From: Acidaminococcaceae bacterium
GTDB taxonomy: Bacteria > Bacillota > Negativicutes > Acidaminococcales > Acidaminococcaceae
Length of the DNA stretch: 61,764 bases
Assembly: GCA_017554485.1 (NCBI GenBank)
Contig: JAFZIG010000134.1
Location: forward strand, 1-61,764
Reading direction: 5' to 3'
Shown: positions 58,082 through 61,302 of the stretch, piece by piece
How positions within the stretch are numbered: position 1 is the first letter of the stretch
Layout: each line of letters begins with the position of its first letter
Program-made: the position numbers and the translations under genes
Notes under the pieces: model-generated
What the model was told of the DNA's origin: nothing
The model's database searches: none
Seen by the model: the letters and a program-made list of their open reading frames with translations, nothing else

Positions 58082-58116
58082 GAGTAAAGCATAATACATG
58101 CAGTAAACTATACAGG

Positions 58117-58280
58117 CAGGAAAAGACAAGAGCAAACTGTAGGAAACGATTGCGAAATTTTATGAGATGAAATGAGCCGTAATGGCGAGACTGTCTGAGG
58201 GCGGAGCCCGAGTTTCGAAGCCATAGGCGAATGAATCCATAAAATAGCAATCGTTGACGTGTTTGCGATGTCTTTTCCTG
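58117..58280. repeat. Intergenic repeat with terminal inverted repeats, copy A
   Basis: The ends CAGGAAAAGACA (58117-58128) and TGTCTTTTCCTG (58269-58280) are perfect 12-bp inverted repeats. Pairing continues inward with gaps (GCAAAC, CGATTGC). A 45-base block (58209-58253) is 44/45 identical to copy B (59828-59872). It ends 30 bases before the exporter gene. Confidence 0.85.
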
Positions 58281-58309
58281 ACAGTATAATTCCTGTTGGG
58301 AGAAGTAAC

Positions 58310-59131
58310 ATGATAAAAAACACTAACAGTGAAATACAACAACAAAATGCGATGTCGCTGCCCCCCATGACCAAAAACCAGGTCATGGACCTTGCCATGG
58401 ACATGGGCAAGATCCTGCTGAAGAGCGGCGCTGAAACCAGCCGGGTGGAAGACACCATGATGCGCTTCTGCCGCAGCTACGGCTACTACGACCTGAACGT
58501 CTTCTGCACCCCCACCGTCATCATCCTGGGGGACGAAAGCCCCCGAGGCAAAAGCCGTGTCTTCCGGGTGCGCTGGAGAGCCACGGATCTGGGGCTGATT
58601 ATGGACGTTAATCAGCTTTCTTACAATTTCCGTAACTGGAATATGGGTTATGTGGAAATCAAACGCTGGCTGCAGGAACGCCTCGCGCAGTCGCATCCCT
58701 ACGGCAACGGGGTAGTCTGCGTGGCTTCCGGTTTAGGCAGCGCCTGCTTTGCCATGCTGCTGGGCTCGGCCAGCATCTACAATTTTGCGGCAGCCTTTCT
58801 CACCGGTTTCATTGCCATGACCCTGCTGAAGATGGTGAATAACTTCCACCCCACGCCCTTCTGGGAAAACTTTCTTGCCGGCTTTGCCATCGGCATCGTG
58901 GCCCAGACCTGCTGCCTGGTAAGTCCCTACTGTACCATGGAAAACATAACGGTAGGTGCGCTGATGCCCTTTCTGCCGGGGCTGGCCTTTACCAACGGTG
59001 TCCGGGACTACATGGCGGGGGACCTGCTCAGCGGCAACAGCCGCATTGCGGAAGCAGGCCTGTTCGCCCTGTCCATCGCCATCGGGCTGGCGTTTGCGTT
59101 GAAGGTCTGGACCTGGGGAGGCCTGCCATGA
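58310..59131 (+). CDS. Threonine/serine exporter family protein, ThrE N-terminal part
   Basis: ThrE_1/DUF1212 family. A cytoplasmic N-terminal domain (about residues 1-125, with LLKSGAETSRVEDTMMR) is followed by five or so membrane segments. Together with the next gene it makes a split ThrE that exports threonine and serine or short peptides. ATG 58310 follows GGGAGAAG; the longer GTG frame lies inside the repeat. Its last four bases overlap the next gene. Confidence 0.9.
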   Translation: MIKNTNSEIQQQNAMSLPPMTKNQVMDLAMDMGKILLKSGAETSRVEDTMMRFCRSYGYYDLNVFCTPTVIILGDESPRGKSRVFRVRWRATDLGLIMDVNQLSYNFRNWNMGYVEIKRWLQERLAQSHPYGNGVVCVASGLGSACFAMLLGSASIYNFAAAFLTGFIAMTLLKMVNNFHPTPFWENFLAGFAIGIVAQTCCLVSPYCTMENITVGALMPFLPGLAFTNGVRDYMAGDLLSGNSRIAEAGLFALSIAIGLAFALKVWTWGGLP

Positions 59132-59649
59132 TGATGCACTATTTGCAGGCCTTTGTCTTTGCCTTTTTGGCTACGGTGGCTTTCGGCGTCCTGTTCCAGG
59201 GGCCGAAACGGATCTTGTGGCGCAGCGGCCTCATCGGCGGTTTGGGCTGGGTGGTCTTTATCGGCCTGAAAGAGCTTTTTTCCGTTCATTCCTTCTCCGC
59301 CAACTTCCTGGCCACAGTGCTCATTGCCCTGGTCAGCGAAATCTTTGCCCGTATCTGGAAAGAGCCGGTGACGGTCTTCGAGATCCCCGCCATCATCCCA
59401 CTGGTGCCCGGCTTTGGCATGTACAGAGGCATGAATTACATTTTACAGAATTATGTCAGCTACGGCAACGAAGTACTGCTGGGAGCGGCAGTGGACGCCT
59501 GCGCCATTGCCCTGGGTATCATGATGGTGTCCGGCGTCTTCCGGGCCCTGAAGACCGGCAGCGATATGGCCAGCCAGCGCCAGCAGGATTTACTGGGGAC
59601 TGACATAGCCTCGGATTTGTATGTATCAGATCCGGAGGACGAGGACTAA
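59128..59649 (+). CDS. Threonine/serine exporter family protein, ThrE C-terminal part
   Basis: ThrE_2/DUF3815 family, 173 residues with about five membrane segments and the PAIIPLVPGFGMYRGM motif. It is the partner of the upstream gene (four-base overlap). A ribosome-binding site (GGGGAGG) lies inside the upstream gene. Confidence 0.9.
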   Translation: MMMHYLQAFVFAFLATVAFGVLFQGPKRILWRSGLIGGLGWVVFIGLKELFSVHSFSANFLATVLIALVSEIFARIWKEPVTVFEIPAIIPLVPGFGMYRGMNYILQNYVSYGNEVLLGAAVDACAIALGIMMVSGVFRALKTGSDMASQRQQDLLGTDIASDLYVSDPEDED

Positions 59650-59663
59650 AGTTCAAATGAAAG

Positions 59664-59902
59664 GTTCAGGGAAAGACAAAAGCAAACTATAGGAAACGAT
59701 TGCGAGATTTAATTGAGCGTTGACCGGGCAACCCGTGAGGGTCCCAGTCTGACGATATCGAGCAACGCGAAGCTTGCTGAGCGTGCGCAGTGAGGAAGTG
59801 GGAGGCGGGTTGCCCGCAACGCGACTTCGAGTTTCGAAGCCACAGGCGAATGAATCCATAAAATAGCAATCGGTTCCGTGTTTGCGATGTCTTTTTCTGA
59901 AC
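59664..59902. repeat. Intergenic repeat with terminal inverted repeats, copy B
   Basis: GTTCAGGGAAAGACA (59664-59678) and TGTCTTTTTCTGAAC (59888-59902) are inverted with two mismatches. The interior is longer than in copy A (GGGCAACCC/GGGTTGCCC arms near 59730 and 59807). It ends next to the terminator of the convergent lipoprotein gene. Confidence 0.85.
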
Positions 59903-59917
59903 TTCTACTTATTACAT

Positions 59918-59949
59918 AAAAAAACTCCGGCAACTGCCGGAGTTTTTTT
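59918..59949. terminator. Terminator of the first PotD-like gene
   Basis: AAAAAACTCCGGCA pairs with TGCCGGAGTTTTTT around a short loop, symmetrical and usable on both strands. The same sequence recurs at 61271-61302. Confidence 0.9.
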
Positions 59950-59955
59950 GCAATA

Positions 59956-61071
59956 TTATTTTCCCGTCTTCAACTCGGTCCAGCAACGGTCATACAGCTC
60001 GATAGCGTCACCCACATCATCCGTCCACTCGGAATTGCCGATGTAATCCTTGGCGGTCTTCAGGATGGGATCATTCTTGAACTCCTCGCTGTGGAAAGGA
60101 ATCGCTGCCAGATTCGGGTCATTGTAACCGATGTACTCGTAATTCTTGGCACTGACCTTGGGCTCATACAGATAGTTGATGAACTGTTGTGCCAGTTCCT
60201 TGTTTTTGGCCCCCTTGGGAATCGCGAAGCAGTCCGCCCAGATGCCGGTGCCTTCCTTGGGAACGATAAAGTCAATATTCTTGTTTTCCTTATTGCTGAA
60301 GTAAGCGTCGCCGCTCCACATGGTGCCGATCCAGGCCTCTTCCGCGATGAACTTCTGCTTGATGGTGTCCGTGTCATAAGCCAGCAGGTTGGGAGAAAGG
60401 GCCTTCAGGTCTTTCATGCAGACTGCCAGGTGGTTTTTGTCCACACTGTTCAGGGGATAACCGTTCATCTTCATGGCAAAGCTGATGACCTCCCGTACGT
60501 CGTTCAGCAGCACCACGCGGCCCTTGTAAGCCGGGTTCCACAGGTCACGCCAGGAAGTAGGCGGCGTCTTCACATATTTTTTATTGTAAGCGATGCCGGT
60601 GATGCCCCAGGAATACACAACAGAATGGGTTCCGGTGGGATCATAGGCAGGCGCCTGTAAATCTTTGATCAGGTTTTTGGTATTGGGCATCTTGCTCAGG
60701 TCCAGTTCTTCCAGCAGCTTGAGCTTCAGCATGGTAGTCACCATGTAATCGCTCGGCTGGATCACGTCATAGCGTGAGCCGCCGGCCTGAATCTTGGCCA
60801 GGAGTTCTTCGTTGTTGGCGAATACGTCATAATTGATCTTGCAGTTAAATTTCTTTTCGAAATCTGCCAGAACCTCGGGGTCAAAATTGTCAGCCCAGCT
60901 GAACAGGTTAAGTATCTGCTTCCCGTCTGCGGTTTTTGCAGGTTCGGCCGGCTTGGCGGGCTGTTCCTTTTTCGCAGGCTCCGCCGGTTTTTCAGTTTTC
61001 TTTTCCGGTCCGCCGCAGGCAGTCAGGATCAGTACCAGTGAACAGAACAACAGAACAAGAATTTTTTTCAT
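59956..61071 (-). CDS. potD: PotD-like polyamine ABC transporter substrate-binding lipoprotein
   Basis: Lipobox LTAC (Cys at about residue 19), followed by a Lys/Pro/Ala-repeat linker (about 24-48) and a PotD-type periplasmic binding protein (about 53-371). LNLFSWADNFDPEV and the polyamine-site segments (SDYMVTTM, YSWGITGIAYN, WSGDAYF, EGTGIWADCF) are typical of spermidine/putrescine binding proteins. ATG 61071 follows GGAGGAG; an upstream ATG is less likely. No permease is in view, but the second copy beyond it suggests that the transporter genes lie further along the minus strand. Confidence 0.9.
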   Translation of the reverse strand: MKKILVLLFCSLVLILTACGGPEKKTEKPAEPAKKEQPAKPAEPAKTADGKQILNLFSWADNFDPEVLADFEKKFNCKINYDVFANNEELLAKIQAGGSRYDVIQPSDYMVTTMLKLKLLEELDLSKMPNTKNLIKDLQAPAYDPTGTHSVVYSWGITGIAYNKKYVKTPPTSWRDLWNPAYKGRVVLLNDVREVISFAMKMNGYPLNSVDKNHLAVCMKDLKALSPNLLAYDTDTIKQKFIAEEAWIGTMWSGDAYFSNKENKNIDFIVPKEGTGIWADCFAIPKGAKNKELAQQFINYLYEPKVSAKNYEYIGYNDPNLAAIPFHSEEFKNDPILKTAKDYIGNSEWTDDVGDAIELYDRCWTELKTGK

Positions 61072-61148
61072 TTTATAAAAACTCCTCCTTTTCTCCATAC
61101 TGGCAGCCTGAACCGCACCACCAGTAAGCCAGTTTACATACCTAATAT

Positions 61149-61177
61149 ATTATAACATACTTTACCTTTACTGTGAA
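61149..61177 (-). promoter_or_regulatory. Promoter of the first PotD-like gene
   Basis: On the minus strand TTCACA (61172-61177), 17-base spacer ending in TGT, TATAAT (61149-61154): an extended -10 promoter. Confidence 0.7.
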
Positions 61178-61197
61178 AATTTTTTCTTGTTAAGTAT

Positions 61198-61258
61198 GAG
61201 GTTTGGAAAAAGGCATGAGCAATCGTTGACGTGTTTGCGATGCCTTTTCCCGAACCTC
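61198..61258. repeat. Short repeat copy C
   Basis: GAGGTTTGGAAAAAGGCAT (61198-61216) pairs with ATGCCTTTTCCCGAACCTC (61240-61258), two wobble or mismatch positions. The loop is a 24-base match to the right inner part of copy A. The inner left arm of copies A and B is missing. Confidence 0.8.
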
Positions 61259-61270
61259 TACTTATTACAT

Positions 61271-61302
61271 AAAAAAACTCCGGCAACTGCCGGAGTTTTT
61301 TT
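61271..61302. terminator. Terminator of the second PotD-like gene
   Basis: Identical hairpin to 59918-59949, with the flanking 50 or so bases also nearly identical, reflecting duplication. Confidence 0.9.

Follow-up and report, generated by a model that had tools for sequence, protein, structure and literature searches.

The stretch of DNA analyzed here (hereafter the window) comprises positions 1 to 61,764 of contig JAFZIG010000134.1 from an Acidaminococcaceae bacterium (GenBank assembly GCA_017554485.1), and it carries three related intergenic elements, A (58117-58280), B (59664-59902), and C (61198-61258), which we confirmed at the coordinates given by an original prediction. A, B, and C represent a single dispersed hairpin family in three different states. 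This Succiniclasticum-restricted, noncoding repeat of ~165 to 250 nucleotides (nt) occurs in dozens of copies per genome and is apparently undescribed. We consider it probable that this family resembles miniature inverted-repeat transposable elements (MITEs) in its spread, settles at gene 3' ends, where it would act as bidirectional intrinsic terminators, and passes through a life cycle of spreading, homogenizing, and collapsing.

The original prediction had proposed a repeat family, which was to be abandoned in favor of a local duplication if only these three copies existed genome-wide. A search of the source genome (G000; 2.57 Mb in 177 contigs) with A and B instead returned ~40 distinct places, and copy A as the query likewise matched ~40, with a best nonself match at an E value of 1.7e-53. 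With a covariance model trained on 20 copies, matches in four congeners numbered 55 in G001, 80 in G003, 37 in G010, and 41 in G012. Although B and C are linked to a tandem duplication of a potD-like gene, these numbers already refute local duplication as the whole explanation. Across a panel of 61 genomes (the source genome and 60 relatives), the family was present in the source genome and in 10 of the 13 other Succiniclasticum genomes and was not found in the congeners G004, G008, and G009 or in 47 genomes from outside the genus, which span other genera, families, and orders. When 84,980 species genomes were scanned for an exact pattern, carriers turned up exclusively within Acidaminococcaceae/Selenomonadales, all with rumen or ruminant-gut records and several labeled Succiniclasticum, including S. 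ruminis DSM 9236. Searches of phages, plasmids, and IMG/VR viral contigs gave no match to the family. At the gathering score, the only Rfam match in the window was a tRNA elsewhere, and the subthreshold Rfam matches were weak and none was to A or B. A literature search, which did not reach most subscription journals, found no earlier description in Succiniclasticum or Acidaminococcus.

Dispersal of the element as a unit is supported, given that empty sites and near-identical copies at unrelated loci were both observed. At the locus of A, flanked by a UDG-like gene and thrE, all 12 congeners that retain synteny have an empty site. We compared 143 distinct copies (L-numbered), our set for detailed comparison, against one another and against ~800 kb of S. 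ruminis, which yielded additional full/empty pairs whose flanks are >90% identical (for example, L182 and L188 versus L249); the empty sites corresponding to L180, L182/L188, and L146 contain no hairpin at all. In G006, six copies (L271 to L276) lie at unrelated genes and are ~90 to 95% identical over ~200 to 250 nt, an identity that extends past the ends of the covariance model, and a subfamily in G001 has the arms as well as the core in common. The MITE-like spread suggested earlier is thus supported in its outcome by the empty site of A and the six G006 copies, while no target-site duplications stand out from the swapped-flank control.

The search for a mover covered target-site duplications and the Y1 and IS110 families. 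Direct repeats of 9 to 10 bp at L180, L182, and L220 were considered as target-site duplications and rejected because the family-wide count equals the control. The Y1/RAYT transposase was rejected as well, given that PF01797 is absent from the copy-carrying genomes G001, G003, G013, and G002 and present in copy-free G008, and IS110 was set aside because its presence does not track the repeat. A single terminal-repeat pattern, searched for in two genomes to reveal an autonomous parent IS with the same ends, matched only element copies or a half copy. As a separate observation, G005 (S. ruminis DSM 9236) has 31 Y1_Tnp matches, many of them truncated at contig ends (e.g., L248), which suggests a multicopy IS200-like element that breaks this assembly.

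The copies fold as a single long hairpin with small internal loops at -76 to -111 kcal/mol, with the exception of the truncated copy L018. Outermost are hypervariable but self-complementary arms that merge into a T-tract on each strand. Inside them lies a constant stem, AGCAAAAC/GTTTTGCG, followed inward by the stems CGATTGC/GCAATCG and ATTTCATG/CATGAAAT and by an irregular tip with GGGC/GCCC. In an alignment of 83 copies, 96.4% of pair cells were paired, compared to 33 to 49% after sliding by 1 to 3 columns; changes on both sides were seen in 38 of 54 pairs, and double-change cells numbered 520 versus 130 in shuffles. These counts lean toward structure because the alignment was fitted to it, yet an unfitted alignment of 20 copies already contained double changes in 25 of the 54 pairs. 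The outer arms are 90% paired, with all 14 outer pairs double-changed, and their pairing score was 18.9 within a copy versus 6.9 after outer arms were swapped between copies. The replacement of A-T in copy A (AAAAGACA/TGTCTTTT) by G-C in copy C, on which the original prediction had drawn, is a real covarying column pair of the family (columns 14/170: GC 38, AU 35, GU 3, UA 2, CG 1, and unpaired 4 among the 83 sequences). However, GGC/GCC and GAC/GTC variants both occur throughout the family, so the difference between A and C is not one evolutionary step.

That a change on both arms implies maintained pairing, as had been argued from A and C, is borne out for the pairing itself, but naming selection as its cause proved unsafe. 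The transcribed strand was taken for copies lying between genes of one orientation, with helices summed and antisense copies turned around. On that strand, one-sided departures from pairing were 73 G-U versus 68 C-A, compared to 52 G-U versus 17 C-A (Fisher P = 0.001) among native terminators of the genus with a single mismatch, which were collected from the window and ~770 kb of S. ruminis by a scan that did not favor G-U. For terminators of Bacillus cereus, G-U has been reported to be the commonest intermediate (PMC5381666). In addition, both orientations were found among orthologous copies at 20 of 38 loci. Since some of these differences reflect different insertions, the inversion test was restricted to pairs with arms at least 75% identical, and the interior was inverted in 7 of 28 such ortholog pairs, at seven separate loci and with core identities of 0.82 to 0.95. 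Arm homogenization, multibase compensation, and spacer or loop inversion are known products of template switching (PMC8604942, PMC8794818). Given the equality of G-U and C-A together with interior inversion, template switching during replication, acting to homogenize the arms and invert the spacer, fits better than RNA selection, and stem matching seems to be kept largely by template switching between the arms, a mechanism that we draw from published work. Homologous recombination between the arms could be another source of interior inversion.

In the window, A, B, and C were the only copies matched by the covariance-model scan. Their parts and the two adjoining terminators are as follows.

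58109-58288, + strand: copy A, a full element folding as one long hairpin between the UDG-like gene and thrE (covariance-model match 58113-58284, 188.6 bits; fold, -77 kcal/mol).
58117-58128, + strand: 5' outer arm of A, CAGGAAAAGACA, from the sequence; pairs with 58269-58280.
58269-58280, + strand: 3' outer arm of A, TGTCTTTTCCTG, from the sequence.
58145-58164, + strand: 5' conserved inner stems of A, AACGATTGC / AAATTTTATG, near-invariant in the alignment.
58238-58255, + strand: 3' conserved inner stems of A, CATAAAAT / AGCAATCGTT, from sequence and alignment.
58197-58209, + strand: apical hairpin of A, GAGGGCGGAGCCC, from the fold; its GGG/CCC pairs covary across the family (helix 9).
59663-59903, + strand: copy B, a composite element at the 3' ends of thrE2 and of the first potD-like gene (covariance-model match, 83.8 bits; fold, -102.8 kcal/mol).
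59664-59678, + strand: 5' outer arm of B, GTTCAGGGAAAGACA, from sequence and fold.
59888-59902, + strand: 3' outer arm of B, TGTCTTTTTCTGAAC, from sequence and fold.
59713-59830, + strand: interior of B, a second, different hairpin repeat in place of the loop (core 59739-59808), from the own-genome search and fold.
61198-61258, + strand: copy C, a collapsed remnant with arms 61198-61216 / 61240-61258 (covariance-model match, 29.6 bits, E 3.9e-5; fold, -36.4 kcal/mol).
59918-59949, no strand assigned: an ordinary bidirectional intrinsic terminator (inverted repeat I9) adjoining B and separate from the element, from the inverted-repeat listing and terminator scan.
61271-61302, no strand assigned: the identical paralogous terminator (I10) adjoining C, again separate from the element and from the same two sources.

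The blocks common to A and B are a left one (58117-58163 and 59667-59713; 89% identity) and a right one (58209-58281 and 59828-59900; 93% identity), and C retains the outer arms and right block of the family, as had been noted before. The arms are indeed imperfect inverted repeats (I2, 58106-58128/58269-58291, in A; I4, 61198-61216/61240-61258, in C). B and C each sit at the 3' end of one member of a tandem pair of potD-like paralogs (repeats D1/D2) and therefore occupy paralogous sites rather than representing independent insertions. The duplication itself covers the potD-like solute-binding gene and its terminator (59956-61098 and from 61309, minus strand) at ~73% DNA identity. We read C as a copy that may have lost its interior by deletion at the short direct repeat AGCAA, with the junction at ~61217-61222; full copies carry this motif on the left in ...GAGCAA... 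and on the right in ...TAGCAA.... In G005, G010, and G012, a short form like C occupies the site orthologous to that of B. At the ortholog of A's site, the UDG-ThrE intergenic region of G013 (L091) contains a hairpin element of another kind, whose stem is GGTCCTGCGGG/CCCGCAGGACC.

Copies also turn over in place. In 22 of 67 ortholog pairs the arms are unrelated (<0.6), in some cases around cores that are 95% identical (L182/L188), and nonorthologous copies can likewise share near-identical cores (~95%) within unrelated arms (L129/L145, L015/L016, and L197/L075). This pattern needs core conversion between copies, re-insertion at a favored site, or wholesale arm replacement. Nesting is a further source of change: in the source genome, L061, L062, and L065 are family cores nested within other members of the family, in the place taken by the insert in B and with the boundaries GTTGAGCGTTGA ... 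CAACGCGAC. The best other own-genome place for the second repeat of B is C164:2501-2577 (L072), 87% identical over the core, where it is free-standing with its own, different outer stem. This second structured repeat, with the core GGGTCCCAGTCTGACGATATCGAGCAACGCGAA...GTGCGCAGTGAGGAAGTGGGAGGCGG, was seen at 59713-59830 of the window, at L072, and at L156 in G003; its outer stems are variable and self-complementary, and it can be free-standing or nested in the first family. Five element-bearing genomes, but none of the three element-free congeners, have short hairpins of the form GCGTGCAGGG-ATTGAACAAA-CCCTGCACGC. Element-end remnants make up the loops of these hairpins, which thus resemble collapsed copies. 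Further full/short pairs are L207/L255 and L158/L258.

Location and anatomy connect the family to transcription termination. The 136 copies with both flanking genes called comprised 55 in convergent, 68 in tandem, and 13 in divergent intergenic regions. Convergent regions thus accounted for 40.4% versus a background of 16.3% (P = 1.4e-8) and divergent regions for 9.6% versus 18.1%, with a tandem background of 66%; the background was determined with the same crude open reading frame caller as was used for the copies. Tandem copies were sense in 42 cases and antisense in 26. Directly beyond the model ends, the frequency of T is 0.5 to 0.66 on both strands, and a 7-base window with at least five Ts follows the stem in 65% of copies on the right and 67% on the left, compared to 22% in the background further out. 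T content measured beyond the whole extended stem gave no signal because the extension had swallowed the A/T tracts. Two loci in S. ruminis carry an ordinary terminator, whereas its relatives lack such a terminator there and have the element instead: GCGCCG-AAA-CGGCGC-TTTTT at L240 (relatives L121, L016, and L191) and a GGAAGTGCTGA-hairpin at L243 (relative L183). At the family level, then, the anatomy of an intrinsic terminator was found, namely, a G+C-containing stem followed by a U-tract at a gene 3' end, and anatomy and location together suggest that the family would serve as, and decay into, bidirectional intrinsic terminators.

Under the reading that we favor, the element would first spread as a unit. 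During residence, replication template switching between the arms would rehomogenize the stem, which would produce the covariation, and would invert the interior. Conversion, a fresh insertion into the same site, or the nesting of another hairpin in the loop, as in B, would then alter the core or arms, and an internal deletion would leave a short terminator-like hairpin such as C. Several observations weigh against this reading. No transposase or insertion mechanism was found: family-wide, direct repeats in the flanks are no commoner than with swapped flanks, and neither the Y1 nor the IS110 family is consistently present with the element. A consensus terminator scan calls none of A, B, and C, and the element is redundant at the sites of B and C, given that ordinary strong terminators adjoin both; the T-rich tracts could be the A-T-rich ends of a mobile unit rather than selected U-tracts. 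The mismatch cells counted above are not phylogenetically independent, and the outer arms, taken by themselves, show a slight G-U preference on the transcribed strand (43:32), so that these arms may be under some selection at the RNA level. Finally, a single genome for each species stands behind the absence of the family from G004, G008, and G009.

One alternative is a palindromic MITE that is purely selfish and does nothing for the host, and whose bias toward 3' ends would mark where insertion is tolerated. Convergent intergenic regions lack promoters and are tolerant of insertion, and the terminators beside B and C are intact; however, T-tracts flank the stem on both sides, native terminators have been replaced at two loci, and copies persist as short terminator-like hairpins, and we regard this explanation as unlikely. 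It is harder still to credit a mobile core that inserts into the loops of host terminator hairpins, with the outer arms and T-tracts being host sequence. The like cores in unrelated arms (L129/L145, L015/L016, L197/L075), the loop-nested insertions in B, L061, and L065, and the G005 short hairpins with the same stem at the L207 and L158 sites would all follow from such a process. Nevertheless, the short hairpins bear remnants of element ends and such arms are absent from element-free congeners, the empty sites at L180, L182/L188, and L146 have no hairpin, and in the G001 and G006 subfamilies arms and core move together.

A structured RNA, either a transcribed small RNA or a cis-regulator with stems held by RNA-level selection, would account for the very stable folds (all but L018), the strong covariation, the mild excess of G-U in the element orientation, and the surplus of sense over antisense tandem copies. 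Against it, G-U equals C-A on the transcribed strand, unlike in native terminators; orientation flips between orthologous copies and the arms are hypervariable; other repeats replace the loop and copies collapse to short hairpins; most orthologous sites have no copy; and there is no Rfam match at the gathering score. Taken together, this makes a structured RNA very improbable. Within the MITE-like terminator reading, a further proposal is that the copies are mobile, ready-made two-way terminators whose stems are kept mainly by a mutation process, template switching, and which replace and then seed ordinary terminators genus-wide; this we offer tentatively, at somewhat less than an even chance.

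The family falls among the broad class of stem-loop repeats known from bacteria (PMC2267715), and the literature search, which did not reach most subscription journals, turned up no description of it. Like ERIC/IRU, RU-1/RU-2, and other such repeats (PMC2267715; PMC2759123; PMC2229807), it is ~100 to 250 nt long, noncoding, intergenic, and imperfectly palindromic, with tens of copies per genome and no transposase of its own. It differs from ERIC/IRU and RU-1/RU-2 in sequence and lineage (Negativicutes), in arms that are hypervariable yet self-complementary, in frequent interior inversion between orthologs, and in collapse to short terminator-like hairpins. REPIN/REP elements with RAYT (PMC3116915) are similarly extragenic, palindromic, and dispersed without a target-site duplication signal, but REPs are ~20- to 60-bp units tied to a RAYT gene, whereas the Succiniclasticum element is a single ~170-nt hairpin. 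No REP doublet (two ~20-bp palindromes in inverted order) was found in the folds, which show one nested long hairpin instead. Since there is also no Y1 domain in three copy-rich genomes and one in a copy-free genome, membership in REPIN/REP fails, and the REPIN-like spread that the original prediction had entertained is not supported. Compared with DDE-type MITEs, the family is short, noncoding, and dispersed and has terminal inverted repeats but no target-site duplication signal above the swapped-flank control.

Intrinsic terminators (PMC5381666) are likewise found at gene 3' ends as a G+C-containing stem followed by a T-tract, undergo paired substitutions, and are bidirectional in many copies. 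The family is far longer, with a full stem of ~170 to 250 nt, is dispersed as a sequence family, and, compared with B. cereus terminators (PMC5381666), has no G-U preference on the transcribed strand. Hairpins with template switches and spacer inversion (PMC8794818, PMC8604942) show the same arm homogenization, multibase compensation, and loop or spacer inversion, and homogenized arms with inverted spacers between close relatives were found here as well. Those published cases concern single loci, ribosomal RNA or microRNA genes, or short spacers of a few bases, whereas here an interior of >100 nt inverts at several loci of a repeat family.

If our reading is true, the family represents a natural replicated system, with tens of copies in each of at least 10 species (among them S. 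ruminis, through its type strain DSM 9236), where compensatory changes of bases come about with no evident selection on an RNA. This would bear on the calling of functional RNAs by covariation, given that covariation need not signal a functional RNA. It also suggests a birth route for bacterial terminators, in which a mobile hairpin inserts at a gene end and then collapses to a short stem-loop.

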